Source: an uncultured beta proteobacterium (GTDB lineage Bacteria > Pseudomonadota > Gammaproteobacteria > Burkholderiales > Burkholderiaceae_C). From it: a stretch of DNA of 64,000 nucleotides. Both the position numbers and the translations under genes were made by a program. Position 1 is the first letter of the stretch; every line of letters starts with the position of its first letter. The notes beneath the pieces were generated by a model. That model made no database searches. It saw nothing but the letters and a program-made list of their open reading frames with translations, and was not told the origin of the DNA. Shown here one piece after another: positions 1 to 39,898 of the stretch. The stretch lies in assembly GCA_903876735.1 (NCBI GenBank), contig CAIRAW010000045.1, forward strand, positions 1 through 64,000. The letters are read 5' to 3'.

Positions 1-221
1 GTGCGGTTCTTGTCGTGAATCGTGTCGCGGTATTCACGCGTGTTGTTGTTCGCCATCTCATGGCAGTTGTTGGCGCAGAACTGCTCTGTGCCGGTGTAGA
101 TCATGCTTGTGCCGAACAGGCTCAGTCCGACCACGGCTGCGGCAAACCCCGCCAGCAAAACCACGGAGGCCTTGTTGCCGGTGACCAGGCGTTTTACCTT
201 GGCGAAAACTCTTTTAGGCAT
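1..221 (-). CDS. NapC/NirT (CymA-like) membrane multihaem cytochrome c, N-terminal part
   Basis: Only the first 73 codons are inside the window. After a short basic start, residues about 15-35 form a membrane anchor (LLAGFAAAVVGLSLFG). The first haem site follows, written CANNCHEM. The Met two residues after the haem His is typical of NapC/NrfH/CymA proteins, where it can ligate the first haem. The spacer between the cysteines is three residues, not the usual two. The ATG at 221 is preceded by a GAAGGAA ribosome site. The family oxidises membrane quinol and passes electrons to periplasmic cytochromes. Lying last in a run of Mtr genes, it is the likely inner-membrane quinol link, but the assignment rests on the N-terminus only. 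Confidence 0.8.
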   Translation of the reverse strand, partial: MPKRVFAKVKRLVTGNKASVVLLAGFAAAVVGLSLFGTSMIYTGTEQFCANNCHEMANNNTREYRDTIHDKNR

Positions 222-342
222 TTGCCATTCCTTCACAAAAAACACGCGTCTGCGCACTGACCTGCTTACGCCCAGGCCAAAAGCGTTGCGACCGGGCGGC
301 AGCCACCATGGGCCACCTTACCCGGTCAACAGGGTCAAACCA

Positions 343-672
343 TTACAAAGACAGAATCCACTGAACAGCGTTCTTGATCTCGGCAGCGTCTTTGGTCTTG
401 ACGGCCTTGTGCTCTTCCTTCTTGCCGTCGATCTCGATCATCGGGTTCAGGGTGATGTGCTTGGTCAGCTTGTCCTCTGCGTCAGCCTTGCCCTTGTATT
501 TCTTGGCAACGTCCTTGTAGGCCGGGCCATCTTTTTTCTTGTCCAGAGCGTGGCACTTCATGCAATCACTCTTTTTCAACAGCGCCTGCGCTGCATCGGC
601 ATCCACCGCGGCGTAGGCAAACGAGGCGGTCATCAAACCGCAGGCAACAAACAGGGTTGAAAGAAGCTTCAT
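343..672 (-). CDS. small periplasmic monohaem c-type cytochrome (class I)
   Basis: This 109-residue protein has a signal peptide ending near FAYA and one haem site, CMKCH, near residue 36. It is clearly a paralogue of the cytochrome at 10572-10913: both start the mature part with VDADAA and share a GPA-x-K segment followed by KYKGKAD. A Met lies in the segment LNPMIEID where class I cytochromes often carry the sixth ligand, but a His in KEEHK is the residue shared by both paralogues. Likely a soluble electron shuttle between the NapC-like protein and the MtrA-type cytochrome; that role is inferred from context. Confidence 0.9.
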   Translation of the reverse strand: MKLLSTLFVACGLMTASFAYAAVDADAAQALLKKSDCMKCHALDKKKDGPAYKDVAKKYKGKADAEDKLTKHITLNPMIEIDGKKEEHKAVKTKDAAEIKNAVQWILSL

Positions 673-973
673 TCTGGTAATCCTTGGAAAAATAAAAAGT
701 GTGGCTGGCTGCCACGGCCAAAGCTTAACACTGCCGTCCGCGTGGCGATACGTAGCGTAAATCTAGCGTGGCATCTTAGCAGCGGACCTGCGCCTCTCCC
801 CAAATTTCAAGGTGCAACTTGACGAAGTTTGATCTACCGCAAACTGAAAAATCAAGATCGGATCATTTCGCCGATCTCCAGTGAGAATTCGCCAACAAAA
901 AGACCCGGCACTGTCTCCAGTCCCGGGCCTCATGATGTCAATTCCAGGGCGATGCCCGGATGCATGCGCCTTG
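673..973. other. 301-base gap between monohaem cytochrome and ComEA-like gene
   Basis: The gap holds the terminator of the ComEA-like gene at about 895-927 and, nearer the cytochrome start, an A-rich leader. I see no convincing coding sequence. A reading frame of about 120 codons on the minus strand across 763-1131 is a shadow of the ComEA-like gene and the terminator. A promoter for the downstream cytochrome probably lies here, but I cannot place its hexamers. Confidence 0.5.
895..927 (-). terminator. rho-independent terminator after the ComEA-like gene
   Basis: On the minus strand a nine-base-pair stem (CCCGGGACT with AGTGCCGGG, one G-G mismatch) closes a six-base loop and is followed by TCTTTTTG. 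It lies about 45 bases after the stop codon at 974, so it should separate the ComEA-like gene from the monohaem cytochrome gene. Confidence 0.75.
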
Positions 974-1438
974 CTACTTCTTTTTCTCCATATGGCGTGC
1001 AGCATCCTTGGCAGCCACCAGTTCCCGAATCGTCTGGTACTTTTCATCTGACAGCACGTTCTTGGTATGCAGCCAGGACTTGCTGCCATAGGGTCGACCA
1101 GCAATGATCTTGGCAGACTCTTCCGCGCCAATGCCAGGCAGCTTCTTCAACTCTTCAGCCGTGGCGCTGTTGATATCCACCAATTGGTCAGCCGGTATAC
1201 GCGGCGCCGCCGCGGGTTTGGCAGGCCTCTTGGGTCGGCTGGCGGCGGTCGCTGGCTCAGCAGGCTTGGCGGTTGACGCCTTTGCTGCCGGAACTGATGC
1301 TTTGGCTGCCGGGGCCGAAACTTTCGCCGCCGGAGCTGAGGCTTTGGCAGCCGGGGCATCGGCAGCCATGACTGTGCCAGCGCTCAGCACGATCACCGCA
1401 GCCGACAGCAGCGAAACAGAAAACAGACGGTAACTCAT
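974..1438 (-). CDS. ComEA-like helix-hairpin-helix protein, secreted, Ala/Lys/Pro-rich
   Basis: A 154-residue protein. The ATG at 1438 is chosen over an in-frame ATG nine codons upstream because GGAG sits seven bases before it. A signal peptide ends near VMAA. A low-complexity linker follows, built from heptads of the type APAAKAS. The C-terminal half is a helix-hairpin-helix domain of the ComEA type, with VDINSATAEELKKLPGIG as its hallmark. ComEA binds incoming DNA in the periplasm during transformation. Here the gene is inside the cytochrome locus, so a DNA-uptake role is unproven and the link to electron transfer is unknown. Confidence 0.85.
   Translation of the reverse strand: MSYRLFSVSLLSAAVIVLSAGTVMAADAPAAKASAPAAKVSAPAAKASVPAAKASTAKPAEPATAASRPKRPAKPAAAPRIPADQLVDINSATAEELKKLPGIGAEESAKIIAGRPYGSKSWLHTKNVLSDEKYQTIRELVAAKDAARHMEKKK
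1265..1375 (-). repeat. imperfect 21-base coding repeats (Ala-Pro-Ala-Ala-Lys heptads)
   Basis: The linker of the ComEA-like protein is encoded by about four imperfect 21-base units giving APAAKAS, APAAKVS, APAAKAS and VPAAKAS. The units differ at third positions, so they are old or selected at protein level rather than freshly expanded. Such Ala/Pro/Lys stretches often span cell wall or bind acidic polymers. Confidence 0.7.
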
Positions 1439-1479
1439 AGAACTCCATTCAGGTGAAACATGCACACAGTGCGCATGCT

Positions 1480-1520
1480 AGCAAAAAAACTAACCCGGAT
1501 GCGTTGCCGGATCCGGGTTA
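1480..1520 (-). terminator. rho-independent terminator after the second decahaem cytochrome
   Basis: On the minus strand a perfect ten-base-pair stem (TAACCCGGAT with ATCCGGGTTA) with a ten-base loop is followed by G and seven T. It lies about 65 bases after the stop at 1585 and about 40 bases before the ComEA-like start. Confidence 0.9.
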
Positions 1521-1584
1521 ATGGGTTGGGTGGGAGGCGGACACTGTTGCCAGTGTCCGTTTCCTGTCTAGCGACTACTTTCGC

Positions 1585-4437
1585 TTATTGGTGCACCACC
1601 GCAGCGTCAGCCACCTTGCCAGCGGAGTGGCAGAGTGAGCACAGTTCGATCTTGGCCTGTGCAGCAGCACGCGGCTTGTAGATCGAGCCACCCGATTGGC
1701 TGTCTTCCATGTGGGCACGGGCCTTGGCCGTGTCGTGGCATGAGAAGCAAGCGGCAGCGGTAGGCGAGTTCACCAGATTGGCCGGTTGCGAACTCACGAC
1801 ACCCGTAGCGGCGGTATAGGCCGGCGAAGCCGTGCCATAAGCCGTGTCAGCTGCCACACCGTAGACGGTCGGCAGGAAGGGGGCCGAGGTGCTGGTGCTT
1901 GCAATGGTGCCAGAAGCAACCGTTACATACAGGCGATTGTCGAACTCAGCATTGAAGCTGGCGATCGATGCAGGCGCCGTTGTCGAGTTGACGATGGTCG
2001 ATGAGACTGGGGTCACCGCATTGTTGACAGCACGACGATAAATCGCGCCAGAGTTCACGGTGTTGGGCAAATGGCAGGCTTCGCACTTGCTGATACCACC
2101 CGGATAACCGACGTTGGCAAAGTTGTCAACGGCGTCCACTGCATGCCAGTAGAACGGTTGTGAACGCTTGCCTGCGCCGTGGATGCCGTGCACAAAGCTC
2201 GACGATGCGGCTGACCAGCCACCACTGCTTTGATTCGGGTTGTGGCAGAAGTTGCACGATTGCGCGTCATTGCGCTGACCCGAATGGTAGGCGCTCTCAC
2301 CGAACACACCGAGTTTTTCGTGGCAGGTGTTGCAACGCTCATTCTCGACCAACACGCGGCGGCTGGTGTAGCCAGTAGCGACCTTCCAGACGTTCGGTGC
2401 CGGAACAATCAAGCCACCGATCAGGGTCGTCTTGTTGTACGGGAACAGCGGCAGGTCAATCTGCGTCAGCGGTTGCGTGGCAGGCAGCGCGTAGGTGTAA
2501 CCCACACCAGCCGTCACCATCTTGGCAGTGGTCGGAATGGTCGCGCCAGTCAATGTCACGGTGTAGTAGCCGTTGGCATCGCGTGCCGACAGTGTGCCGG
2601 CACCAGTGGTGGTGGCGGTGCCGTTCCAGATGTTCTTCAGGTAGCCACTCAGATTGGCATTGAAGTCGGTCGGGGCGACGGTCATGCCATCCTGCGGCAC
2701 AGCGAAGCGCACATAGATCGATGGGCTGCCGACGAAACCATTAAGCATTTCAGTCGTCACGCCAGCGGCGTAGGTGTTGAAGGTCACTGGCACGCCAGCG
2801 CTGTCAAGCATACGGAACTGTACGGCGACCTTGCCAGACGTCACGGTCACGTTACCGAGTTCATACGTGAAAGCCTTGGCGCCTGCGGGCAGGTGCTGGG
2901 TGTAGGCAGCGATGGCAGCAGCATTGGTGTTACCCGTTGCAACCGTACCGGGGGCCTGTGCCAAGATGGCAGCAGCGATCGGTGCGACTGGCACGTGGTA
3001 GTCAACAACGTCCTGCGCCTTGTGGCAGGTGGCGCAATCAGCGTCATTGGCGTAAGCCTTGCCAGCGCCGTGGGCATAACCCTGGCCGTTGTAGTTGGTG
3101 ATGCCAGAAACCGTCTTGCCGGTACCGGTTGCGAAGTTGATACCGTCATGGCATGAACCGCAGGCCTTGATGCTGGGTGCGGTCTTCCAGTTGTCGCCAT
3201 TGGGTTGCGCGATCTTGGAGGTGGCCGAACCGTCGTGGCACTTGACGCAATTACGCACGTCTTGCGGGTAGCGGGTTTCGTTCACTGTCACGCCACGGAT
3301 GTTGTAGTTCTTCTTGACCAGGCTCTCACCCATGTGGATCTTGTGAACCCAGCGCGGCATATCCACATTGCTGTAGATGTTGGTGCCGTCGACTGTCTTG
3401 GTTGCGATGTCGCCAACTGTTGCGCCAGTCGAGCCGAGCACGTAGTCGCCGTTGGCGTCAAACGAAGCGGCGGTCGGTGCAGCGTAACCATAGGCGCTCT
3501 GCGGTGTATGACAGGTCACGCACAAGTTCGGGTCCTTACGGCCGTGCAGCAGGGCACCGGCATGGCAGGACTGGCACACGTCAACCTTGGTGATGGTGCG
3601 CGTCGCCGTCACGGCTGCGCCGTCCGGACGGAAGTCCAGGTAAGCCGCTACCGGGTTGGTCGAACTGACCGTGGCCTTCACCGTAAACCCGTCGGGCGTG
3701 TTGGTGCCAGTGCCTGGCTTGGCGCCTTGGAACTGCATGGCAACGCGGTGGGTTTGCGCCGGCGCGTAGGATACATCGCCGAGGTCAGCCTTGACGGTCT
3801 TGACACCGTCATAAGTACCGGCATCGACCACGGTCTTGGCCTGGGTGATGTCACGGTAGAACTTGTAGCTGTAGGCGCCGTTGCCGAGGTCGGTCATGAC
3901 ACCCTGGTTGTCCGTTGTCGGAGAACGTTGGGCAGCCGGGGTTGTACCGGTGCTGTGGTCTGTTGCGCTCTTGAAGGTCGGCGTCGACGTCACGATGTAG
4001 CTCAGCCAGTAGCTGGGGCTGCCATTGACGGCCGGCATCAGCTTGGCAACAGTGAAGCCGAAGTTGGCATAGGCAGCGGCAGTTGCCGTGCTGACCGGGT
4101 TCAGTGAACTGTAGGCCAGACCGGTGATGGGCTTGCCATTTTCATCAACAACCTTGAAGTTGACGACGGGCTTGCCGTCAGCGGGAATGGTGGCGCCGGT
4201 GATCTGAGCAGACCACTTCATGTCGACCCATTGCTTGTCGGTGACGTCGGCCAGCTTGACGACGTCGTTGGCGTTGACACCGGGGGCACCCGCAGCGCCG
4301 GGGGTACCAGCGGCACCGGCTGCGCCTGGCGCACCGTCACTGCCGCCGCCGCAACCGGCAAGAGCTGCAATCGCAAGCACACTTGCTGCAGCGAGCTTTC
4401 CCCAATGGGGAGAGGTTCGATCGTTGAAATACTTCAC
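1585..4437 (-). CDS. OmcA/MtrC-family decahaem c-type cytochrome, surface lipoprotein
   Basis: A 950-residue protein with a lipobox (ALAGC) near residue 29, so it should be lipid-anchored to the outer membrane and probably surface-exposed. Right after the lipid cysteine comes a collagen-like Gly-x-y stretch (about residues 33-54). Ten CxxCH sites fall into two sets of five, about residues 289-470 and 700-935, separated by a long beta-rich segment. This matches the two pentahaem domains of MtrC and OmcA, which reduce Fe(III), Mn(IV), flavins or electrodes outside the cell. It lies after the mtrB gene with its own upstream gap of 283 bases and its own terminator, so it may be a separate unit. 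The RBS AGGAGG upstream supports the start. Confidence 0.95.
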   Translation of the reverse strand: MKYFNDRTSPHWGKLAAASVLAIAALAGCGGGSDGAPGAAGAAGTPGAAGAPGVNANDVVKLADVTDKQWVDMKWSAQITGATIPADGKPVVNFKVVDENGKPITGLAYSSLNPVSTATAAAYANFGFTVAKLMPAVNGSPSYWLSYIVTSTPTFKSATDHSTGTTPAAQRSPTTDNQGVMTDLGNGAYSYKFYRDITQAKTVVDAGTYDGVKTVKADLGDVSYAPAQTHRVAMQFQGAKPGTGTNTPDGFTVKATVSSTNPVAAYLDFRPDGAAVTATRTITKVDVCQSCHAGALLHGRKDPNLCVTCHTPQSAYGYAAPTAASFDANGDYVLGSTGATVGDIATKTVDGTNIYSNVDMPRWVHKIHMGESLVKKNYNIRGVTVNETRYPQDVRNCVKCHDGSATSKIAQPNGDNWKTAPSIKACGSCHDGINFATGTGKTVSGITNYNGQGYAHGAGKAYANDADCATCHKAQDVVDYHVPVAPIAAAILAQAPGTVATGNTNAAAIAAYTQHLPAGAKAFTYELGNVTVTSGKVAVQFRMLDSAGVPVTFNTYAAGVTTEMLNGFVGSPSIYVRFAVPQDGMTVAPTDFNANLSGYLKNIWNGTATTTGAGTLSARDANGYYTVTLTGATIPTTAKMVTAGVGYTYALPATQPLTQIDLPLFPYNKTTLIGGLIVPAPNVWKVATGYTSRRVLVENERCNTCHEKLGVFGESAYHSGQRNDAQSCNFCHNPNQSSGGWSAASSSFVHGIHGAGKRSQPFYWHAVDAVDNFANVGYPGGISKCEACHLPNTVNSGAIYRRAVNNAVTPVSSTIVNSTTAPASIASFNAEFDNRLYVTVASGTIASTSTSAPFLPTVYGVAADTAYGTASPAYTAATGVVSSQPANLVNSPTAAACFSCHDTAKARAHMEDSQSGGSIYKPRAAAQAKIELCSLCHSAGKVADAAVVHQ

Positions 4438-4533
4438 TGTAAGCCTCCTAAGGCGTTAACGTTAAAAACACAACTAAACACTTTACGTTCACTTTACACA
4501 CGGCGATTCTCCTTGTGCGGCGTGGCTGTCAGT

Positions 4534-4547
4534 TTGCGCTAAGTCAA
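4534..4547. promoter_or_regulatory. weak FNR/ANR-like site upstream of the second decahaem cytochrome
   Basis: The 14-mer TTGCGCTAAGTCAA matches the FNR consensus TTGAT-N4-ATCAA at seven of ten positions. It lies about 100 bases upstream of the start at 4437, in the only gap inside the Mtr gene run large enough for a promoter. Support is weak on sequence alone; a perfect site lies at 11043-11056. Confidence 0.3.
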
Positions 4548-4660
4548 ACATCGGGGAGTTAGAACCCGCTTTACCAAGTCATTTCCACCGTGAGCGGGAC
4601 CGGGCAGCCTGTCGCAGCAGGCCATGAACCTGGTCACTGGCCTTGCGCGCGACGTGCAAT

Positions 4661-4695
4661 AAAAAAAGGTGCAACCCTTTTCAGGGTCGCACCTT
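4661..4695 (-). terminator. rho-independent terminator after mtrB
   Basis: On the minus strand a twelve-base stem (AAGGTGCGACCC with GGGTTGCACCTT, one mismatch) with a six-base loop runs into seven T. It follows the mtrB stop at 4721 by about 25 bases, so the mtrCAB transcript probably ends here. Confidence 0.9.
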
Positions 4696-4720
4696 CTTCT
4701 TGATGAAGGTCAGTTGACTG

Positions 4721-6916
4721 CTAAGGCAACTGGTAGCTGTAGCTCACGCCGATGAAGCTGACGTTTTGCGACTGCTTTTGCGCCAACGTGCTGCCGTCGG
4801 AGAACGTGAAGGGAATTCCCTCATAGGCCCAGGCCCAGTCATTCATGCTGGCGCGCTGGTGCACCAGATCCACCCGCACCGCCGAAGCTTTGTCGAGCGT
4901 GTATTTGCCAAACAGCTTGAGCGCCGTCTGGCGGTACACCACATCGGGCAGGCCACCGCTGGCAGCCAGCAGGGCCACGCTGTCGGCCGTGGCCGAGGCG
5001 TCAAGCGTCTGGGCGTAAACGCTGCGGTCGTTCAGGAAGGACAAGCCGCCGCCGACGTTGAACGTGCTGCTGACCTTGCCCGTCACGCCGAAATTGACGC
5101 CCAGGTTCTTGTTGTCAAAGGCCATCACATAAGCCGATGGACGCGCCTGATTCAGGTTCTGCAGGCTTTGCGACAGGTAGCCATTGAGCGCCCAGTTGTC
5201 GGACAGGGTGTAGCCCCAGTCAACACTCAACTGGCTCATACGGGTGTCACGCAGGCCGTAGGCGCCGGGCGTGTCAAAACGGTCCTTGCCGGTTTCAGCG
5301 CTGAACTGCAGCGTCAGGCTCTCACTGGCCTGCCAGTCGGAGAACAGCCGGATCTTGTCGCGCTTGCGGTCCGCCAGCGAGGGCATGAAGACGGCGGTCG
5401 ACGCCAAGCCGGCCACCGGGTCGGCCGGGTTGATGACTTCGGTCAAACCGGTCCCGCTGTTGTCCTTGAGCCAGTTGGAGCCGGTGCGCTTGCTGCTGGA
5501 GACACCAATCGAACCGCTGACGTCTTCTGACATGCGGCGACGCAGATCGGCACGGACCGTGGTTTCATCTGTCTTCTGGCGCAAGGCGCTGATGCCAGAG
5601 ACAGCGCTGGTGCTGGTGAACGTGCCGTGGTCAATGCTTTCACGGTCCGCGCCCAGCGTGCCGCGGTAGTCACTGTTGAAACTCCAGCTGGCCTGCACCT
5701 TGCCGTTGGTCTTGCGATACGGCAGATTGCGGTTGGTGTAGGTATTGGTGTTGCCAAAGGTGCAAGGTGCTGCAAGCTGTGCCGCGCCTTCCACGTTGTA
5801 GCAGCCAATCGTCGTCTGGTCATCGCGGTTTTCATAACGCAGATCGGCCATCAGGCTGAGTTGCGGAATCGGGCGCGACGTCAGACCCAGCTTGCCGGTG
5901 GTTGATGTGACCTGGCCGCCGAGATCGGTGCTGCCCGCCGGTGCTCCGACCAGGCCCATCGCAGCAAAGTCACGGTTCTGCGTGGCCACGCTGCGCCCGA
6001 GCTTGAAGCTGCCGCGCGTGGTGTTGCTGAAATCAAAACTGCCACTCAAATCGAGCTGGTGCGCCTGGTTGTCCGGCGCCAGGGCCAGCGGCGACCCGAG
6101 CAGGCCAAGCAAGGCTGGGTTCGTTGCGGTATTCAAGGCGCCCGGCAGCGAGGCCGTGAGCGTGCCGTTGTCGTTGCGGTAGAAAGAGCCGTAATAGCCC
6201 AAGCTGACCCGCAGTTTGTCCATGGCGTAATTGAGCCGGGCTTCAAGCTGACTGTGGCTGGCCTGGATCGGCTCGGGCAGCATCAGCACAGCCCAACCGG
6301 TATTGGCAGCACAACCGGGCGCAATCACCGACGGGCAGTTCAGACCGATGCCGGACAGGCGTGCGCCTTCCTTCTTCTCGTTCTTCAGATCGAATTCGAA
6401 TTGAAGCGCCGGGGTAATCCATTTGGCCAAACCCAAGCCCAGGCCGGTGCGCTTGGTCTTGAGGTCGAAATCGGTCCCCGTGCCGGGTGCGATCGCGACG
6501 ACCTGCGGCACCGTGGAGCCGAAACCGAGCATGCCGCTGTTGACCGTGTTCGGGTCGTAGCGCACCAGTTGACCGTAGTCGGCGCTGAGCTTCCAGTCGC
6601 CCGGATTCTTCCAGACCAGGTGCAGTTCGCGCGTCTCGCCCAGCAGGTTCGAGCCCTGCAGGTCAACCCATGTCGAGGTCGACTCCTTGCGCAGGCTGTA
6701 GTCAAGGCCGAGCGTCACGGCACTGCTGCGGTTGCGCAGGCCGTTGTACTGGCCAAACAGGGCACGGTCGGCGCTGTCGCCGCTGGCAAGACCCAGGCCA
6801 ACGTCAACAGTGGTCGTCACGCTGTCAGTCTGGGCTTGCGCCGCCATGCAGGCCGTGCATACGGCCATCGCCACCAGGGTGCGATGGAAACGGGGTGAAT
6901 AAACGGATGTGGTCAT
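4721..6916 (-). CDS. mtrB: MtrB/PioB-family outer-membrane beta-barrel of the porin-cytochrome complex
   Basis: A 731-residue protein with a signal peptide ending near AQAQ, followed by alternating polar/hydrophobic strands with many aromatic residues, as expected for the 26-strand barrel that sheathes MtrA and docks MtrC. The length fits MtrB and PioB. Two features differ from the Shewanella protein: the only N-terminal CxxC (CTAC, about residues 20-23) lies inside the predicted signal peptide and would be removed, and the chain ends in YQLP instead of an aromatic residue. The gene lies 16 bases after the MtrA-type gene and must be co-transcribed with it. The symbol is by family and gene order. 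Confidence 0.93.
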   Translation of the reverse strand: MTTSVYSPRFHRTLVAMAVCTACMAAQAQTDSVTTTVDVGLGLASGDSADRALFGQYNGLRNRSSAVTLGLDYSLRKESTSTWVDLQGSNLLGETRELHLVWKNPGDWKLSADYGQLVRYDPNTVNSGMLGFGSTVPQVVAIAPGTGTDFDLKTKRTGLGLGLAKWITPALQFEFDLKNEKKEGARLSGIGLNCPSVIAPGCAANTGWAVLMLPEPIQASHSQLEARLNYAMDKLRVSLGYYGSFYRNDNGTLTASLPGALNTATNPALLGLLGSPLALAPDNQAHQLDLSGSFDFSNTTRGSFKLGRSVATQNRDFAAMGLVGAPAGSTDLGGQVTSTTGKLGLTSRPIPQLSLMADLRYENRDDQTTIGCYNVEGAAQLAAPCTFGNTNTYTNRNLPYRKTNGKVQASWSFNSDYRGTLGADRESIDHGTFTSTSAVSGISALRQKTDETTVRADLRRRMSEDVSGSIGVSSSKRTGSNWLKDNSGTGLTEVINPADPVAGLASTAVFMPSLADRKRDKIRLFSDWQASESLTLQFSAETGKDRFDTPGAYGLRDTRMSQLSVDWGYTLSDNWALNGYLSQSLQNLNQARPSAYVMAFDNKNLGVNFGVTGKVSSTFNVGGGLSFLNDRSVYAQTLDASATADSVALLAASGGLPDVVYRQTALKLFGKYTLDKASAVRVDLVHQRASMNDWAWAYEGIPFTFSDGSTLAQKQSQNVSFIGVSYSYQLP

Positions 6917-6932
6917 TGTTATTCTCCGTGCT

Positions 6933-7874
6933 TCAGCGCGTCATGAGCTGTGGCGTCGGGTTGCTGGTAGACGGATTGTTGGAACCATGGATCTGCGTAT
7001 GGCAGTTCAGGCAACTGCGCCCCTGCCACAGGTTGACCGTGTTCTTTCCGCTGCTGAAATTGCTGGCCACGCCGCTCTGGCCGCCCAGTGCGCCAACGCC
7101 ACCCGCAACGTGCGGCGTATGGCATTGCTGGCACAGTATCGGCGCACGCGCCTTGAGCATACCGGCCACCGCGCTGCCGTGCGGGTTGTGGCAGTTCGAG
7201 CAGTCTTCGGCCACCGGTTCATGCTGGTGCACAAACGGACCGCGCTTCTCGGCATGGCAGGTATAGCAGGTGGCGTTGGTGCTGTCGCGCTTGACCAATT
7301 TGGGACCAACCGAGCCGTGCGGGTTGTGGCAATCCGAGCAGGTCATCTTGCCTTCAGGCACCGGGTGGTGCGACAGGCGGTTGACCTGGGAGCGCTGCTC
7401 CTTGTGGCAGGTGTAGCAGACCTCGGCCTGGGTGGCGCGGTTCATTACCTTGTCGCGGTTGCCGTGGATCTTGTGGCAGGAGTTGCAGGCCACGTCGGCA
7501 TTTTCATGCTGGCTGCCGGCCCAATGCGCGCGCTTGGGGTCTTTGGTGTGGCAGCTCATGCAGGCCGCATTGCGCTCGCTCACTGGCGATGCATAAGACC
7601 GGATGAACATGCGGTCAGGACGCGGCCGGTCTTTGAGTTCCGGCGGTTTCTTGGCATGCGTGGGGCTGGGGCCGTGGCAGGTGATGCAGTCGGGCACACG
7701 TGCGTCGGCTGCAAAGCCGTGGGCCGACTTGCTCATGTCGGGGAGGTCTTCTTCATCGTGACAGGTCACGCACAGTTTGGCGCCGACCTCACCGGCGGCC
7801 CATGCGGTGCCGAACGGGCCGAGCAAGCCCGCCAGACACAGGCCCAAAATGGCCATTGAACTCTTGATTCGCAT
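6933..7874 (-). CDS. mtrA: MtrA/DmsE-family periplasmic decahaem c-type cytochrome
   Basis: A 313-residue protein from the ATG at 7874, which has AAGGGA seven bases upstream and gives a clean signal peptide ending near AWA. An in-frame ATG at 7922 overlaps the upstream stop but has no ribosome site. Ten CxxCH sites (CVTCH, CITCH, CMSCH, CNSCH, CYTCH, CSDCH, CYTCH, CSNCH, CQQCH, CLNCH) are spread evenly over the chain, several followed by NPHG, as in MtrA and DmsE. In the family this rod-like cytochrome is inserted in the MtrB barrel and carries electrons between the periplasm and the outer surface. The gene order surface cytochrome, MtrA, MtrB matches Shewanella mtrCAB. Confidence 0.96.
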   Translation of the reverse strand: MRIKSSMAILGLCLAGLLGPFGTAWAAGEVGAKLCVTCHDEEDLPDMSKSAHGFAADARVPDCITCHGPSPTHAKKPPELKDRPRPDRMFIRSYASPVSERNAACMSCHTKDPKRAHWAGSQHENADVACNSCHKIHGNRDKVMNRATQAEVCYTCHKEQRSQVNRLSHHPVPEGKMTCSDCHNPHGSVGPKLVKRDSTNATCYTCHAEKRGPFVHQHEPVAEDCSNCHNPHGSAVAGMLKARAPILCQQCHTPHVAGGVGALGGQSGVASNFSSGKNTVNLWQGRSCLNCHTQIHGSNNPSTSNPTPQLMTR

Positions 7875-7918
7875 CCCAGATCCCTTCAAAACAGTTGCCG
7901 ACTTGCGGCGACGCAGGC

Positions 7919-10438
7919 TCATTTCAGACCGTGGACGATGTCCACGCTCTTGGTGCCGCCACTGGCATGGCAGTCGTCACAGGTTTCGCGCGGCAACACG
8001 TTTGCAGCGGGCAGCAACGCACCGATGTCCGCCTGCGTGCGGGTGCCAAACGTGCCACCCCCAAAGTTGACCACGTGCGTCTGCGCTGCAATGGAGTCAT
8101 GGCAGGCGGTACAGGTAGCGGCCTTGGGCGAGATCACCTTCCACAGGCTCGGATCGGTCACGCCCGTGTCTTTCTTGACGACAGCGCCAAGCGGACTCAG
8201 ATCACGCATGTACGAGTTGTTGACGTGGCAGACCGTGCAATTGATGCCAACGCCCGGCCAAGCCACTTCGGCAGCAAAACTCGCAACCGTGCTCGGCCCC
8301 ACCACGCCACCCGCACCCGGGCCGCTGGTGCCATAGGCACGTCCATAACTGTCTTTCATTGGCGTGGTCCACGGCGCCACCGGGGCACCAGTGACCTTGT
8401 CAAACACACCCTGTGTCAGATTTCCGTTGGTAAACGGATACGTGCGCTTGCTGTTGCCATGAATGCCATGGATCATGCGCTTGAACTGGTAGGACTCGTT
8501 GAGGGCCAGACCATTCGTCATGACGGTCGACGACACGCGGTTGACATCATGGCAGGCAACACAGGCTTCCACCATATTGCGTGCGCCGCTGTGGAAGGCA
8601 TTGTCAAGCGTGTTGGAGCCTGAAGCGGTTCCGAGCGCGCCATGGCATGCGTTGCACTTTTCGTTGGACACAATGGTGCGGCGCGGTTGCAGCGTGCCGG
8701 AGAGTGCGAGTTCCTTGTAGCTGTGCTGCGCCGTCGTGTTGACCAGAACGGTCGGCACCACAGCGGGGCGCGCATTGGCTTGCGACTTGACCTCCAGCAG
8801 GGGCTCCTTGATTTGCCCGGTGCTGAGCACGCGGGCCGTGCCCTTGGCCACAGCGATTGCCGTGTCGTCGGGCAGCGCAATGTTGACCGTGTAATGGTTG
8901 CTGCCGTCGTTGCTGCCCTTGTAGGCATAGACATTGGCGCCACTGCCAGCCGAGTACTCGGTCACCGAATCAAGCTGACCGATCATGTTCTGGTACGCCA
9001 GGTAAAGACGCAGGTTGCCGAACTTGGTGGTGCTGGCGCAGGTGATGGTCGTGGTGCCCGTGCAATCCGGCGTCACCAGGTTGTAAGCGGCATTGCCATT
9101 GGTGGGGTCTGACAGGAAGTACTTGACCGTCACGCTTCGCGCCTTGTGGTCAGCCGTGTCGTTGAAGGCGACACTCTCGATGTTCATCTTGTACTTGGCC
9201 GCGTTGGCCGCAACCTGGTTCCAGTGCACATTCTCGGCTGAAACATTGGAGCCGGCACCGTGGCATTTGACACATTGCGCATCCGTCAGCGAAGTCGCCA
9301 GCGCACCATTGCCGTTGAGCGAGATGGCGATGCCAACGTGAACGTTGTTCCAATCGGTACCGAGGGCACTGGTGTGGCAGGTCAGGCAAGCACCTTTGCT
9401 CGGCTGGGTCTTCCAGTTGTCGCCCTGCGGTGTGGCGGCATTGGCGCCCGAATGGCACACCGTGCAGTTGCGCAGGTCCTGCGGGAAGCCGACTTCAGCG
9501 TAGCTGTTCTTGCTGTTCTGGTAGCCCCAGATCGTGTAGTCCTCACCGTTGCTGGCAAGCAGGCGCCCGGCATGAATCTTGTGGACCATGGTGGCCAGGG
9601 TCAGGACATTGCCGGAGTTGGCATCGGTGGTGCCGGGGTTGTGGCACATGACGCAGTACTGCGTATCAACGCGACCGCCGCCATGCAGTGCCAGTTTTTC
9701 GTGGCAGCCATTGCAGGACGAGACATCGGTCATCTTGCGGGTCTTGGCCGGGTCAGTGACGAGCACCGAATTGCCGCTGGCGTCGACCGTGAAATCAACG
9801 TAGGGGTTGACCAGCACCGCGGCGCCGGCTGCATTTTTGTAGCTGAGCTGAATGGCCACGCGATGGGTGCGCGCCGGCTCGAACACGACGCCATTGGTCT
9901 GCGCTGTGTCCTTGATATTGGTCTTGAAGGTGTAGGTGTAATAGCCCTCGGGGTGGTACACCAGTTGTGCCGCCAGCAAGGCCGCATCGGTCTGCTTGCC
10001 ATCGGTGGTGGCCTGCCAGGCCGAGGCCAATGCCGGCTTGCCGCCTGGGCCGACTCCGGCCGTTGCGGTTTCCTTGCGATAGATGTAGTTGACCCACTGG
10101 TCCGGATTCCCATCGGTGCCGGGTACCAGCTTGGCGATGGCGAAAGTCACATTGGTGATGGCCAGGTCCGGCTTGACCTGCGCATCAGAGAAGACGGCAA
10201 AGTTGACCTTGGTCGTGGTATTGACACTGACCGCCGGTATGCCCGCGCCCTGCAGCACGGTAAACGGCGCAGCGCCATTGTTTGCGGTGTCGTTACTTGC
10301 CAGCGCGCCAGCCGCGCTCAAAGCGGGCAAAACGCCAGCGGCCGGTGCGGGTGTTCCGCCCCCACCGCTGCCGCCGCAGCCCACCAAGGCGATAGACACC
10401 AGGCAGGCAGTACTCCATCGAGCCAATGAATGTTTCAT
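7919..10438 (-). CDS. mtrC: OmcA/MtrC-family decahaem c-type cytochrome, surface lipoprotein
   Basis: An 839-residue protein with a lipobox (LVGC) near residue 21, then a Gly-rich linker. Ten CxxCH sites form two sets of five, at about residues 241-390 and 593-823, as in MtrC. Its position directly before the MtrA and MtrB genes, 45 bases from the chosen mtrA start, makes it the likely MtrC partner of the complex. It differs clearly from the 950-residue family member at 1585-4437 in length, linker and haem spacing, so the two are not a recent duplication. The symbol follows family and gene order; function as terminal reductase or as oxidase entry site cannot be told from sequence. Confidence 0.94.
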   Translation of the reverse strand: MKHSLARWSTACLVSIALVGCGGSGGGGTPAPAAGVLPALSAAGALASNDTANNGAAPFTVLQGAGIPAVSVNTTTKVNFAVFSDAQVKPDLAITNVTFAIAKLVPGTDGNPDQWVNYIYRKETATAGVGPGGKPALASAWQATTDGKQTDAALLAAQLVYHPEGYYTYTFKTNIKDTAQTNGVVFEPARTHRVAIQLSYKNAAGAAVLVNPYVDFTVDASGNSVLVTDPAKTRKMTDVSSCNGCHEKLALHGGGRVDTQYCVMCHNPGTTDANSGNVLTLATMVHKIHAGRLLASNGEDYTIWGYQNSKNSYAEVGFPQDLRNCTVCHSGANAATPQGDNWKTQPSKGACLTCHTSALGTDWNNVHVGIAISLNGNGALATSLTDAQCVKCHGAGSNVSAENVHWNQVAANAAKYKMNIESVAFNDTADHKARSVTVKYFLSDPTNGNAAYNLVTPDCTGTTTITCASTTKFGNLRLYLAYQNMIGQLDSVTEYSAGSGANVYAYKGSNDGSNHYTVNIALPDDTAIAVAKGTARVLSTGQIKEPLLEVKSQANARPAVVPTVLVNTTAQHSYKELALSGTLQPRRTIVSNEKCNACHGALGTASGSNTLDNAFHSGARNMVEACVACHDVNRVSSTVMTNGLALNESYQFKRMIHGIHGNSKRTYPFTNGNLTQGVFDKVTGAPVAPWTTPMKDSYGRAYGTSGPGAGGVVGPSTVASFAAEVAWPGVGINCTVCHVNNSYMRDLSPLGAVVKKDTGVTDPSLWKVISPKAATCTACHDSIAAQTHVVNFGGGTFGTRTQADIGALLPAANVLPRETCDDCHASGGTKSVDIVHGLK

Positions 10439-10571
10439 TTCTTCTCCGTCGTTTTAGGTTTGAACGACATGACACAAACTGCTGAAAGCCGTTAGCGCGA
10501 TACCGTTACTTCTATGCAGTTCATTCCTGATACTTGTGAACCATCATGCGCTCGCTGGAGCGGCGCAGTTC

Positions 10572-10913
10572 TTACTGGGCCAGTACCCAGTCGGCGATGT
10601 TCTTCAGCGCAGCCTGGTCTTTGGTGTCGATGATCTTGTGCTCTTCTTCGCTACCGTCGTCAAGTTTGACCTTGGGGCCGGTGGTAATGTTCTTGATGAT
10701 GCTGGCCTGACCGTCAGCCTTGCCCTTGTACTTGGCAGCAATCTTCTTCAGGGCCGGGCCCTTCTTGGCCTTGTCAACCGAGTGGCATTTGCTGCAATCG
10801 TTCTTTTTGAACAATGCGGCTGCCGCATCGGCGTCCACAGCAGCCATTGCGCTGGTGGAGGAAACGGCGAGTACAGCCATGGCGACGGGAACCAGAATTT
10901 GTGCGAATTTCAT
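10572..10913 (-). CDS. small periplasmic monohaem c-type cytochrome without a mature Met
   Basis: A 113-residue protein with signal peptide ending near SAMAA and one haem site, CSKCH, near residue 40. It is a paralogue of the cytochrome at 343-672. After signal cleavage no Met remains, so the usual Met sixth ligand of class I cytochromes is absent. The only other His is in the segment EEEHK, which the paralogue also has, suggesting bis-His ligation or an open site. It is the first gene of the Mtr run, about 130 bases from the neighbouring decahaem gene, and lies downstream of a perfect FNR-type box. A role as periplasmic shuttle is inferred. Confidence 0.9.
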   Translation of the reverse strand: MKFAQILVPVAMAVLAVSSTSAMAAVDADAAAALFKKNDCSKCHSVDKAKKGPALKKIAAKYKGKADGQASIIKNITTGPKVKLDDGSEEEHKIIDTKDQAALKNIADWVLAQ

Positions 10914-10966
10914 GTCAAAGCCTTTCAGTTTGCAGTAGGGTTGGTCAAAGAAATACCCGGGTCTGA

Positions 10967-10983
10967 CCCAGGATAGACCTGGG
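10967..10983 (-). promoter_or_regulatory. perfect hairpin in the leader of the first Mtr-locus gene
   Basis: CCCAGG and CCTGGG close a five-base loop, about 55-70 bases before the start codon of the monohaem cytochrome. A second GC-rich arm (CCCGGGT) follows. No T run follows, so it is not a standard terminator; it may stabilise the leader or bind a regulator. Its function is not known. Confidence 0.35.
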
Positions 10984-11042
10984 CGCTAGGATAAACCTGT
11001 AATCGGTGATGGACCCATGAATTTGTATCGTATCGTTTCCGG

Positions 11043-11148: not shown

Positions 11149-11805
11149 CTACGGCTGGCCGAGGCCTTGCAGCCACCGATCGATCTCCTGTAGCGCCGCC
11201 TCACTGGCCGCGTTCAGTGCGCGCACACCGCCTGTTGCATCGGCGCTGGGCGCGTCGCGCTGCACCGTGAGGCTGCGTTGGGCCAGCGCGGTCGCGCCGG
11301 TGGCGCTGGTGCGGCTTACGGTGGCGCGCAGTCGCAGCAGGCCGACGCTGCTCTCAGGCGCCGTGAATACCTGGCTGAATTCCTCGAGTTCGATGCGCAA
11401 TGTGAGCGGTCGCTCTCGGTTTGGCATCCCGGCAACGAGAGTTTCGTCGCCGGGCCTGAGCAGGGTATGGCGCTGGCCCAGAGTCTCGCGCAGGCGCTGG
11501 CCCAGCAGTTGCGTTGGCGTCATGCTCCAGCGCGCCAGTGCATAGGGCCGAAGTTGCTGCCCGTCGGAATAGGCCAGACGGTACAGCATGGCTGTGCTGT
11601 CGAGCGCCGGGTTGACATCGACCATTTCAAGCAGCAGGGCTGGCAGTCTGGCCTCGCCGTGCTTGCTGGCGACGTTCAGGGCGCCGGGGCCAAAGTCGTA
11701 GACTGCGGCGCGCGTGCCCGGCGTCGGCACGGCGCAGGCGCCGAGCAGCAAAACAAGGCAGGTGGCGCCGACGCGACGGGTGGCTGATGTCAGGGTGTGC
11801 TTCAT
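11149..11805 (-). CDS. ABC-type transport auxiliary lipoprotein (PqiC-like) of the MCE system
   Basis: A 218-residue lipoprotein with lipobox (LLGAC) near residue 24. The body has the features of the PqiC/ABC auxiliary lipoprotein family: YDFG near the N-terminus, a segment LLLEMVDVNPALDSTAMLYR, and a C-terminal helix with a conserved Asp-Arg-Trp-Leu. In related systems this outer-membrane lipoprotein works with an MCE protein in lipid transfer across the periplasm. Its start overlaps the stop of the MCE gene (ATGA), and it ends the four-gene operon. Confidence 0.85.
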   Translation of the reverse strand: MKHTLTSATRRVGATCLVLLLGACAVPTPGTRAAVYDFGPGALNVASKHGEARLPALLLEMVDVNPALDSTAMLYRLAYSDGQQLRPYALARWSMTPTQLLGQRLRETLGQRHTLLRPGDETLVAGMPNRERPLTLRIELEEFSQVFTAPESSVGLLRLRATVSRTSATGATALAQRSLTVQRDAPSADATGGVRALNAASEAALQEIDRWLQGLGQP

Positions 11806-12767
11806 GGTTTGACCGGGCTCGCAGTGAAGCCGCTTTCACCCGGGCCGGGCGGGATTGGCGCGTTGCCGAAAATCAGGGATTGCGGGTTGTCGCCGACGCT
11901 GTCCACGGTGCGACCCAATTGGCGCGCGCTGCGCGCGGCCTCGTCGGCCAGGCGGTTGACGCGCGGCAGCGTCAGACTGTTGAGGGTTTGCCCGGTCCGC
12001 ACCAGGGTGTCGGCGCCGGCGCTGAGCTGGTCCAGCGTGCCGCCGGTCTCGTTCATGCGCTCGGTCACGGTCCGGAACGCCCGCGCTGAGGCGCGCGCCT
12101 CGTCCGCGCTGTCGCCAACCCGCGTCGAGGTTTGCTGCAGGCTTTGCAGCGTGGTCTTGCCGTCCTGCACCAGCGCCGGCAGCGTCTTGCCGGCGTCTGC
12201 GGCCATGCGTCCCAGGCTGTTGGCCGCCTGGCCCATGTGGTCGATCGTGGTGATCAGCTTCTTCTGGTTGTCGGGGCTGAGCAACTGGTTGATGCGGACG
12301 CTGCTTTCTTCGAGTTGGCGCAGAATCTTCTCGCCCTGGCTCGACAGTTTGGACATCAAGCCCGGCCGCATCGGAATGCGCCCGGCCGCGCCACCGCCCG
12401 GCGCCAGCGCCACTTGGGATTCGCCGCTGTCGTCGAGTTGCACGAAGGCCAGCCCGGTGACACCCTGAAAACCCAGCGACGCGAAGGTGGACGTGGTGAT
12501 GGGCGCACTGTCGTCGATGGCGATGCGGATCAGCACCTGTGCGCCGGCCTGCGGATCGAAGCCGATGCTGCTGACCTTGCCAACGGTCACGCCCTTGAAG
12601 CGCACCGATGCCTGCGGCTGCAAACCGGTTACTTCTTCCTTGCTGATGAGCTCATAGACGCGCATTTCGCGCGAGTCGCGGGTCAGCCAGACCGCCAGCG
12701 TGGTCAGCAGTGCCGCCAGCAGCAGCACAAAGGCGCCGGCGGCCAGAGCGTGGGATTTGTTTTCCAT
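11802..12767 (-). CDS. MCE-domain (MlaD-like) lipid-transport protein
   Basis: A 321-residue protein with one N-terminal membrane helix (about residues 10-28) and an MCE domain at about residues 38-115, marked by VRFKGVTVGKVSSIGFDP and a conserved GVTGLAFVQL. A long alpha-helical tail follows, like those that form periplasm-spanning needles in longer MCE proteins. MCE proteins form hexamers that bind phospholipid and couple an inner-membrane ABC transporter to the outer membrane. It lies 24 bases after the ATPase gene. Confidence 0.92.
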   Translation of the reverse strand: MENKSHALAAGAFVLLLAALLTTLAVWLTRDSREMRVYELISKEEVTGLQPQASVRFKGVTVGKVSSIGFDPQAGAQVLIRIAIDDSAPITTSTFASLGFQGVTGLAFVQLDDSGESQVALAPGGGAAGRIPMRPGLMSKLSSQGEKILRQLEESSVRINQLLSPDNQKKLITTIDHMGQAANSLGRMAADAGKTLPALVQDGKTTLQSLQQTSTRVGDSADEARASARAFRTVTERMNETGGTLDQLSAGADTLVRTGQTLNSLTLPRVNRLADEAARSARQLGRTVDSVGDNPQSLIFGNAPIPPGPGESGFTASPVKP

Positions 12768-12791
12768 GGTTTTGCGTGCGAGGCTTTCTTT

Positions 12792-13589
12792 TTACACCGC
12801 CGGCTGGTGTTTGTGCAACAGGGCTGCTGCGCGCTGGCCGCGCTCGCCCAGGAAGAACTCACGCACAAACGGATGTTCGCAGGCCATCACCGCGGCCGGC
12901 TTGCCGTTGACGATGATGCGCCGGTCAGCAACCACGGCAATGCTGGTGCTGAGTTCGAACAGGGTGTCGAGATCGTGCGTGACCATCACCACCGTCAAGC
13001 CGAGCTCGCGGTGCAGCGACAACAGGAGCGCGCAAAAGGCATCGGCGCTGTCGGGGTCGAGCCCGGCAGTGGGTTCGTCGAGCAGCAGCAACGGCGGGTC
13101 CATCACCAGCGCCCGCGCCAGCGCCACGCGTTTGACCATGCCACCCGACAGATCAGCCGGCATCTTGTGCGCCTGCGCCGGGTCGAGCCCGACCATTTGC
13201 AGCTTGACCATGGCGACATCGCGCACCAGATCGCGCGGCAGCGTTCTGAGTTCGCGCAAGGGGAACGCAATGTTCTCCAGCACGGTGAAGGCGGAGAACA
13301 GGGCGCCGTGCTGAAACAGCATGCCGACGCGGCTGGCCGCGCCCTCGGCGCCCATCTGCGAGGCAGGCCGGCCCAGCACCGTGACCTTGCCGCGCGCCGG
13401 CGTCTCCAGCCCCAGGATCTGGCGCAGCAGCACCGTCTTGCCGCTGCCCGAGCCGCCGACGATGGACAGCAGTTCGCCGGCCTCGATCCGCAGGTCGAGG
13501 TTCTTGTGGATTACTGCGGCGCGCCCGGCGTTTCGGAAAACCGACCAGAGCTTCTCGATCTGCACGACGGGTTCAGGCGTTTGCATCAC
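12792..13589 (-). CDS. MlaF-like ABC transporter ATP-binding protein
   Basis: A 265-residue ATPase with Walker A GGSGSGKT, signature LSGGMVKRVALARAL, Walker B LLLLDEPTAGLD and a switch His. The Met-Val-Lys insertion in the signature is typical of the MlaF/Ttg2A subgroup. The GTG at 13589 or the ATG right after it is the start; both overlap the stop of the permease gene. With the permease and MCE proteins it makes an inner-membrane lipid transporter. Confidence 0.93.
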   Translation of the reverse strand: MMQTPEPVVQIEKLWSVFRNAGRAAVIHKNLDLRIEAGELLSIVGGSGSGKTVLLRQILGLETPARGKVTVLGRPASQMGAEGAASRVGMLFQHGALFSAFTVLENIAFPLRELRTLPRDLVRDVAMVKLQMVGLDPAQAHKMPADLSGGMVKRVALARALVMDPPLLLLDEPTAGLDPDSADAFCALLLSLHRELGLTVVMVTHDLDTLFELSTSIAVVADRRIIVNGKPAAVMACEHPFVREFFLGERGQRAAALLHKHQPAV

Positions 13590-14773
13590 AGGCCGACATC
13601 CTTGAATACGACGGCAAACAGCGCGTCCACCAGGATCACCATGGTGATCGAGATCACCACCGAGGCCGTTGTGCCGCGCCCCAGGCTTTCGGTGTTGGGC
13701 TGGACGCGCAGGCCGAAATGGCAGCCGATCAGGGCGATTAGCAGGCCGAACACCACGGACTTGCCGACCGCCAGCGTGAGGTTGGCGATCGGTACCGCGC
13801 GCGGCAAGGCCTCAAAAAAATAAGCGGGTGTCACGCCCATCACCAGGTCCGATGCCAGCATGCCGCCCAGCAGCGCCGAAAGCGTGGTCCAGACCGTGAG
13901 CAGGGGCATGGCAATGGCCATGGCAATGGCGCGTGGCAGTACCAGCCGGTAGCCCTTGGCAATGCCCATGACACGCATGGCGTCGAGTTCTTCGGTCACG
14001 CGCATGACGCCGATCTGGGCCGTGATCGAGGAGCCGGAACGCCCGGCGATAAGGATCGCGGCCAGCACCGGACCGAGTTCGCGGATCAGTGCAAAGCCCA
14101 GAATGTTGACGATGAAGGCGTCGGCGCCAAACTGGCGCAGTTGCTGCGACATCAGGTAGGCCAGCACCACGCCGATCAGAAAGCCGACCAGTGCCGTGAT
14201 CGGCAAGGCCGTCGCGCCGACGCGGTACAGGTGGCCTGAAACATCGCGCCATGGGCCCTTGCCTGGCGCGGCGGCGAGTTTGACGCAGTCGAGCGCTAGT
14301 TGCCCGGTCAGACGCAGACCGTATTTGAGGTGGTCAAGAACCACCCAGACCAGTGCGCCGAGTGCCAGAAAGAGTTGCCAGAGCGTGGTTCGCGTTGGTG
14401 CCGGCGGCACCCGCGTGTAGTTCGCAACCCGGCTCAGCATGCTGTGCTGGGTTGGCGTCAGCGCCAACCTGGTGGGCCAGCGATGACCCCAGGCGTTCCA
14501 CAGCAGTTGGGCGCCGGTATGGTCGAGCCGTTGCAGGCCGTTCAAGTCCCATCGCCAGTGCTCGGTGCCGCTGGCGCAGCAAGCCGCCAACTCCGATTCA
14601 ATCCGGGGCCAGACCGCAGCGTTCGCCAGTTGCGCCGCTGTCCAACCGCCCGACAGCAGCAGAGCCTGCCCGTCAACCGTGGTCTGGCGTGTGATGCGTG
14701 GCGAGTCTTGCGACGGGGTGGTGCGATCAATCACAATGCGGGACAAAAGAAATTTATCCGTGAGTCTAGTCAC
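13586..14773 (-). CDS. MlaE-family ABC permease with N-terminal STAS-like domain
   Basis: A 395-residue protein. Residues about 30-115 look like a STAS (MlaB-like) domain, with LSGGWTAAQL and WDLNGLQRLDHTGAQLLW. Residues 130-395 are an MlaE permease with five or so membrane spans and the family hallmark around ELGPVLAAILIAGRSGSSITAQIG. In E. coli MlaB is separate from MlaE; here the two are fused, a known variant. The start is a GTG with only a weak ribosome site, so the first dozen residues are uncertain. It is the first gene of the operon and diverges from the enoyl-CoA hydratase gene. Confidence 0.9.
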   Translation of the reverse strand: MTRLTDKFLLSRIVIDRTTPSQDSPRITRQTTVDGQALLLSGGWTAAQLANAAVWPRIESELAACCASGTEHWRWDLNGLQRLDHTGAQLLWNAWGHRWPTRLALTPTQHSMLSRVANYTRVPPAPTRTTLWQLFLALGALVWVVLDHLKYGLRLTGQLALDCVKLAAAPGKGPWRDVSGHLYRVGATALPITALVGFLIGVVLAYLMSQQLRQFGADAFIVNILGFALIRELGPVLAAILIAGRSGSSITAQIGVMRVTEELDAMRVMGIAKGYRLVLPRAIAMAIAMPLLTVWTTLSALLGGMLASDLVMGVTPAYFFEALPRAVPIANLTLAVGKSVVFGLLIALIGCHFGLRVQPNTESLGRGTTASVVISITMVILVDALFAVVFKDVGL

Positions 14774-39539: not shown

Positions 39540-39876
39540 GCCCATACGCCCAGATCCCAGCTTTGATGATCGATGGGGCACCATTGATCTAGGACTGATC
39601 ACCAGTTGGGAACGAGGCCGCGAGAAGAGCCTAGAAGAGCCAGAGCTGGCCGCGCAGGCACGTGCGGGACAGCTCATGGTGTTGCCTTGGAAGGGCGGAG
39701 TTGAGAAGGCAGTTCAAAAGAAGGTGAAGTACGGGGTGTTCAACTATTTGGCAATGTGGCAGGGACTGCGAGGCGAGGACCTGAATATTGACGTCGCAAA
39801 AGAGATTCCCCTAACCTGCTCCGCAACGGGCATGACGGTAATCTTCACCATTGATATCACGAAGTGCACTGAGTAA
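39520..39876 (+). CDS. unknown 118-residue protein in BRCT operon
   Basis: The ATG at 39520 has AGGAG six bases upstream and overlaps the end of the previous gene by 20 bases. It contains DDRWGTIDLGLITSWERGRE and a segment MVLPWKGGVEKAVQKKVKYG. No signal or membrane span; not recognised. The overlap argues for translational coupling, so it is likely to be a real gene. Confidence 0.62.
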   Translation: MHRSINEPIRPDPSFDDRWGTIDLGLITSWERGREKSLEEPELAAQARAGQLMVLPWKGGVEKAVQKKVKYGVFNYLAMWQGLRGEDLNIDVAKEIPLTCSATGMTVIFTIDITKCTE

Positions 39877-39898
39877 TCACGGTCAGAGGCTGACACTG

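Follow-up and report, generated by a model that had tools for sequence, protein, structure and literature searches.

The window, a 64,000-nucleotide stretch of DNA from an uncultured beta proteobacterium, starts at the first base of contig C45 in a 3.91-Mb genome (G000; 82 contigs, 97.8% complete), and its first 10,913 bases carry an Mtr-type porin-cytochrome locus of eight consecutive minus-strand genes, all of them present as the initial annotation had described. At the core of the locus, adjacent genes encode a decahaem MtrC, a decahaem MtrA and an MtrB barrel, each scoring over a curated family cut-off. MtrC (7919-10438), a predicted outer-membrane lipoprotein of the OmcA/MtrC family (TIGR03507 591 bits, cut-off 209.3; lipobox LVGC), carries its haems in two groups of five (residues 242-389 and 595-820) and has MtrF, OmcA and UndA as solved relatives. 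MtrA (6933-7922), a putatively periplasmic cytochrome of the DmsE/MtrA family with 10 CXXCH motifs (TIGR03508 306.6 bits, cut-off 192.2), shares 46% identity with chain 6r2q_A across 277 columns; we take this chain to be MtrA from the MtrCAB complex of S. baltica, although its file gives it another name. MtrB (4721-6916) belongs to the MtrB/PioB family of predicted outer-membrane beta-barrel porins (TIGR03509 491.3 bits, over cut-off; PF11854 468.6 bits), and a phmmer search with MtrB alone returned no solved relative.

A second, divergent OmcA/MtrC-family decahaem lipoprotein is encoded at 1585-4437 (TIGR03507 408.2 bits, over cut-off; lipobox LAGC), with haems again grouped five and five (residues 288-468 and 702-933) and MtrF and MtrC as solved relatives. 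The two proteins share only 25% identity over 417 alignment columns, which bears out the proposal of two unlike decahaem lipoproteins, and surface exposure is predicted for both. Chance does not account for such haem density: 2000 shuffles of each decahaem protein gave a mean of 0.01-0.09 CXXCH motifs and a maximum of 2, against 10 observed in each. Two further genes encode MtoD-like monohaem class I cytochromes c with one CXXCH apiece, the first in transcription order (10572-10913; PF00034, 9e-9), a putative periplasmic shuttle, and a second at 343-672, whose best solved relative is 4xxl_A ('Cytochrome c class I', E 1.2e-27), presumably MtoD of Sideroxydans; they are 52% identical to each other over 79 columns. 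The last gene in transcription order (3-257), cut by the contig end, encodes the N-terminal portion of a tetrahaem quinol dehydrogenase of the NapC/NirT (CymA-like) type (PF03264 44.9 bits), so that the NapC/CymA-type gene once placed at the start of the cluster is real but stands at its far end. Its first haem motif is of the CX3CH form (CANNCH) and, added to 32 strict CXXCH motifs (10+10+10+1+1), makes up the 33 haem sites previously counted.

The remaining gene (974-1465) encodes a haem-free ComEA-type helix-hairpin-helix (HhH) protein with an N-terminal hydrophobic stretch (PF12836, 1.2e-8), which corrects the description of eight consecutive genes encoding haem sites. We compared the locus with 74 fetched loci (within L046-L175) that contain MtrB and an OmcA/MtrC gene, a set that includes duplicates between collections and some cut loci. 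A ComEA-type homologue occurs in 30 of the 74, lying at most 600 bases from an OmcA/MtrC gene in 29, so that a DNA-binding-type HhH fold accompanies surface cytochromes there. The number of OmcA/MtrC genes per locus was one in 46, two in 17, three in nine and four in two. Directly upstream of the mtr genes lie Mla/MCE-type ABC transport genes (11149-14773; auxiliary lipoprotein, MlaD, ATPase, MlaE), of which MlaD and the auxiliary lipoprotein are retained upstream of mtr in many congeners.

The locus had been called complete, but base 1 of the window is a contig end and the cluster continues in contig C33 (6631 bases), which opens with 141 bases identical to the contig end at the NapC fragment. 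In the same direction as mtr, C33 encodes the rest of this first NapC protein (NapC1), a second one (NapC2; PF03264 209.5 bits), a protein of 82 residues that weakly matches a zinc ribbon, a CbcL/MtrH-like cytochrome, FrdA, FrdB and a cut FrdC. NapC1 and NapC2 each contain three CXXCH motifs and one CX3CH, the latter first. The CbcL/MtrH-like protein (670 residues) combines eight CXXCH motifs and one CX3CH with a putative cytochrome b part, whose matches to the cytochrome b561 and formate-dehydrogenase-gamma families are weak and below cut-off.

To place the locus among its relatives, we drew on 120 genomes (its own, 71 congeners and 48 others of the same order) and on a scan of named genomes yielding 79 distinct mtr loci, drawn from the best 80 of 560 confirmed. 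The taxa represented included Rhodoferax, Polaromonas, Ramlibacter, Ideonella, Duganella, Aromatoleum, Zoogloea and Gallionellaceae. MtrB was matched at E <=0.001 in 48 of the 120 genomes and over cut-off in 46, and the genome of the window has a single MtrB and two full OmcA/MtrC genes. From 140 MtrA-MtrB pairs, 116 remained after removal of near-copies and were analysed together with the window. Both of its proteins fall in a betaproteobacterial clade of 56 rows that has support of 100 in each tree; the trees come from quick searches, several of their branches are long, and the MtrB rows vary in composition. An OmcA/MtrC gene lies within 6 kb in 51 rows of this clade, and in the remaining five a truncated fragment of such a gene sits at the end of a contig. 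Gene order had been likened to Shewanella, and the order MtrC-MtrA-MtrB is indeed the same, but the closest relatives found are Betaproteobacteria. Family models and both trees thus support assignment to a betaproteobacterial (Rhodoferax-type) MtrCAB conduit in which two OmcA/MtrC proteins are accompanied by a CymA-type partner, and with it the earlier proposal of a putative Mtr-type conduit for extracellular electron transfer (EET).

The quinone that might feed such a conduit is suggested by a gene elsewhere in the assembly. The genome encodes RquA, of rhodoquinone synthesis, at C76:35168-35866 (317.9 bits on the equivalog model NF038261, cut-off 175), next to frdD, frdC, frdB and the end of frdA. 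We found no exact join between C33 and C76; comparison of C33:5346-6617 with the C76 end (L260) revealed about 128 identical bases at frdA followed by divergence over frdB/frdC (92% over 1272 bases), an assembly branch that suggests two strains or two gene copies. A join of the mtr cluster to the rquA contig in this genome is therefore likely, though not proven. Congeners supply the arrangement on single contigs: in G015, G038 and G048, mtr, the NapC pair, CbcL, frdABCD and rquA are co-directional (the G015 and G038 contigs ending inside mtrC), and in the G015 locus L053 rquA directly follows frdABCD (NF038261 317.5 bits). In G001 and G033 the mtr and frdABCD-rquA ends are co-directional with other genes between them and no NapC pair seen, and in G064 the mtr contig carries rquA some 10.5 kb away from mtrB, with no frd.

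Across the genus, RquA was found in 33 of 39 MtrB-positive and 13 of 32 MtrB-negative genomes (Fisher P 1.6e-4), and at >=90% completeness in 21 of 24 and 7 of 17, respectively (P 0.0026), counts that ignore kinship and in which 'MtrB-positive' mixes MtrB types. This table excludes weak MtrB matches in G008 (28 bits, fragment) and G037 (18 bits), and UbiE-like matches in the RquA search (~52-69 bits) were not counted as RquA.

The association extends beyond the genus. Around the named mtr loci we fetched flanks of at most 10 kb, often less (1.27 Mb in all), and rquA occurs in those of 9 of the 79 listed betaproteobacterial loci, compared with a chance expectation of 0.25-0.42 loci for one randomly placed rquA per genome, a comparison in which relatedness makes any P optimistic. 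A tenth mtr-linked rquA came from a phylum-wide sample outside the 79 (L220), and all ten proteins score 288-315 bits on NF038261. Four loci (L116, L121, L123 and L143, from Ramlibacter) contain, in this order, mtrB, a cytochrome c gene, rquA and frdA; L160 has frdABCD and rquA; in L149 and L172, mtrB and a NapC gene are present and rquA directly follows NapC; in L167 (Herbaspirillum) rquA sits between mtrAB sets; and in L147 it lies in the mtr flank. Gene order thus varies, rquA preceding frdA in some loci and following frdD or NapC in others, a pattern suggestive of repeated linkage.

Two markers of the alternative low-potential quinone were not found. The best MenD match in the genome of the window reached 64.5 bits against a cut-off of 244.2; such matches, far below the cut-off and present in all 14 control genomes, we assign to other enzymes. 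MenD exceeded its cut-off in none of the 71 congeners and in two of the 120 genomes (G085, which has MtrAB and MenD and no RquA, and G091), and MqnA/D (PF02621) was found in neither the window's genome nor the 71 congeners and over cut-off in one of the 120 (G117), these two families being the menaquinone markers searched. The RuBisCO large chain was likewise not found in the 97.8% complete genome. Rhodoferax ferrireducens makes rhodoquinone, according to passages of PMC6529003.

Collectively, the gene content and order, family membership, tree placement, recurrent linkage of rquA and lack of matches to the two menaquinone-pathway families lead us to favour, with moderate confidence, a mainly electron-exporting MtrCAB conduit fed by rhodoquinol, made with the help of RquA, rather than by menaquinol. 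In the proposed path, dehydrogenases would reduce the quinone pool, and rhodoquinol (or ubiquinol) would be oxidised by NapC1/NapC2 or the CbcL-like protein. These predicted inner-membrane quinol dehydrogenases may pass electrons to the MtoD-like monohaem carriers, which would cross the periplasm to MtrA inside the MtrB barrel, and from there electrons would reach MtrC and the second, OmcA-like surface cytochrome and leave, in the main direction of flow, for an extracellular acceptor such as Fe(III). The frdABCD genes would provide a second outlet of the same pool, with rhodoquinol feeding both conduit and fumarate reductase. More generally, we lean slightly towards the view that betaproteobacterial MtrCAB/MtrAB EET is coupled to rhodoquinone and not menaquinone, that rquA has repeatedly joined mtr/mto loci beside NapC or frdABCD, and that rhodoquinol oxidation by NapC/CbcL-type cytochromes constitutes a second quinone chemistry for Mtr-type respiration.

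The most serious alternative, which we nevertheless hold to be rather unlikely, keeps the same exporting conduit but feeds it with ubiquinol, rquA being in the cluster only because rhodoquinol serves frdABCD. A location of rquA near complex II genes is described for many bacteria in passages of PMC5953543, and frdA accompanies rquA in five of the nine named mtr-linked loci and in L220. Within the genus, we read 21 of 47 rquA loci (46 congeners and the window's own genome), chiefly the most similar ones together with G010 and the same-contig cases. In 12 of them frdD is the direct neighbour of rquA, and in the other nine it is not. In two of these nine, rquA instead adjoins genes for a NapC tetrahaem and a monohaem cytochrome c (L266 of G010, 8989-10988; L279 of G003, 8741-10726), and no frd gene occurs in the stretch read around either. 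Similarly, L147, L149, L167 and L172 have rquA beside mtrAB and no frdA in the 11-21 kb fetched, and in L149 and L172 its immediate neighbour is NapC; the link between rquA and mtr thus seems not to run via fumarate reductase alone. A quinol at +100 mV is, moreover, ill suited to donate electrons to most Fe(III) oxides. Passages of PMC6529003 give potentials of -63 mV for rhodoquinone (RQ), -80 mV for menaquinone (MK) and +100 mV for ubiquinone (Q).

Several observations nonetheless weigh against a rhodoquinol-fed conduit, beginning with the frequent frdD neighbour and the kinship left out of the co-occurrence counts. In the window's own genome rquA is reached on another contig through an assembly branch, and one branch may thus stem from another strain. 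RquA is lacking in 6 of the 39 MtrB-positive congeners (3 of 24 at >=90% completeness), among them G070 (98% complete), whose locus L059 has MtrCAB-OmcA in a genome with no RquA, MenD or MqnA/D, as the ubiquinol alternative would allow. Outside the genus, the MtrB-bearing genomes G073, G081, G082 and G093 likewise have none of these three, and ubiquinone may therefore suffice for some MtrAB systems. Among the listed named loci, 70 of 79 have no rquA in the fetched DNA, and Polaromonas L120 carries mtr, cbcL and frdABCD with rquA absent from the next 1.8 kb. In frd-bearing loci the linkage may reflect fumarate reductase alone.

Less probable still is that the conduit works mainly inward, as in Mto/Pio-type oxidation of extracellular Fe(II)/Mn(II) with reduction of the quinone pool. 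MtrA and MtrB of the window are closer to betaproteobacterial MtrAB loci without MtrC than to Shewanella, its monohaem carriers resemble MtoD, and oxidative metabolism is reported for Ramlibacter lithotrophicus and Rhodoferax MIZ03; R. lithotrophicus, whose mtr locus (strain RBP-1) carries rquA, also counts against the favoured reading. Set against this, a low-potential quinone gene in the cluster would be the wrong choice for electron uptake from Fe(II), the RuBisCO large chain was not found, and two decahaem surface proteins together with frdABCD fit anaerobic reduction; R. ferrireducens reduces Fe(III), according to passages of PMC8552755. The direction of electron flow, which the initial annotation had left undecided, is therefore tilted towards export by rquA, frdABCD and the missing MenD, MqnA/D and RuBisCO matches, without proof.

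Least credible is an accessory role for the barrel and decahaem proteins in an extracellular DMSO reductase (DmsEF-like), since, although MtrA matches the DmsE-named family TIGR03508 (a name covering MtrA proteins generally) and G043 has a distantly DmsA-like gene (22% identity, 90 bits) close to mtr (in L046 and, cut, L108), no other DmsA homologue was found in L046-L175, and neither tree produced the clustering with DMSO-reductase modules that had been named as refuting the Mtr assignment, the three DMSO-context rows (L212, L213, L218) forming a separate supported group with Shewanella-grade MtrA (85-89% identical to 6r2q_A) and MtrB.

Other features of the window and genome were recorded in passing. 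Between 36001 and 42000 the G+C content of the window falls to 0.51-0.57, compared with 0.60-0.67 in the remaining 2-kb steps past base 2000, and an exonuclease-type gene lies inside this stretch (39851-40783), which is possibly acquired DNA. A sigma-70 scan was uninformative, with no promoter-like sites (2.5 expected) and nine terminator-like sites (13.7 expected). Two further multihaem pieces lie at contig ends of the genome, with 14 CXXCH motifs at C47:1-1530 (L044) and 12 at the right end of C3 (L045:4535-5545); they are consistent with one large repeat-rich multihaem protein split by assembly, and a search for an exact overlap between the C47 and C3 ends found none. Beside the C3 piece, one gene encodes a 732-residue protein that weakly matches TPR and porin families, and another a 430-residue protein that by eye resembles an FAD oxidoreductase; this may be an additional locus for electron transfer.

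Comparison with the Shewanella MtrCAB/OmcA/CymA system highlights both shared architecture and divergence. The MtrC-MtrA-MtrB order, decahaem lipoproteins and a CymA-type partner are common to both, whereas MtrA here is only 46% identical to 6r2q_A and belongs to a separate tree group. The sole CXXC of the window MtrB (CTAC, residue 20) lies within an N-terminal hydrophobic stretch resembling a signal peptide, so that mature MtrB lacks an N-terminal CXXC; the Shewanella-grade L209 has a CKGC further in. Such a CXXC near the mature MtrB N-terminus reportedly marks metal-reducing Gammaproteobacteria (a view attributed to Wee et al. 2014). Shewanella also uses menaquinone, in contrast to the genome studied here, where MenD and MqnA/D were not found.

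Much closer counterparts exist among Betaproteobacteria, and the cluster type is already published in passages of PMC6295460 and PMC8805035, frdABCD and an HhH gene being noted in the latter. The cluster of Rhodoferax (Albidoferax) ferrireducens T118 (PMC6295460) shares mtrABC, two CymA homologues, each with a CX3CH first motif as in NapC1 and NapC2, a CbcL homologue (MtrH) and other cytochromes; compared by published description rather than by sequence, it shows no difference from our locus. The betaproteobacterial Group 4 MtrCAB systems of Baker et al. 2022 (PMC8805035) likewise have frdABCD and homologues of MtoC/MtoD next to mtrCAB and show duplicated MtrC, and an HhH gene is described there next to a Group 4-type mtrC. 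The rhodoquinone connection is less visible in these sources: the passages of PMC6295460 on the T118 cluster name neither frd genes nor rquA, its main text does not contain 'rhodoquinone', and the main text of PMC8805035 contains neither 'rquA' nor 'rhodoquinone', one passage stating that a recipient of mtrCAB with cymA or netBCD needs menaquinone genes. Conversely, Stairs et al. 2018 (PMC5953543) report that in many bacteria, as here, rquA lies close to genes for complex II and cytochromes, in a main text with no occurrence of 'mtr', and their supplementary tables may already tabulate linkage to single mtr genes. A literature search on rhodoquinone or rquA with EET, iron reduction, multiheme or Rhodoferax returned no title on Mtr. 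Taken alone, then, the locus is one more Rhodoferax-type mtr cluster. Its wider interest lies in the quinone: Mtr respiration is usually discussed with menaquinone, whereas in this genus no MenD or MqnA/D was found and rquA occurs in Mtr loci of several betaproteobacterial genera. If the proposed coupling is correct, rhodoquinol would give these bacteria a low-potential electron source for reducing Fe(III), which bears in turn on the direction in which their conduits run.

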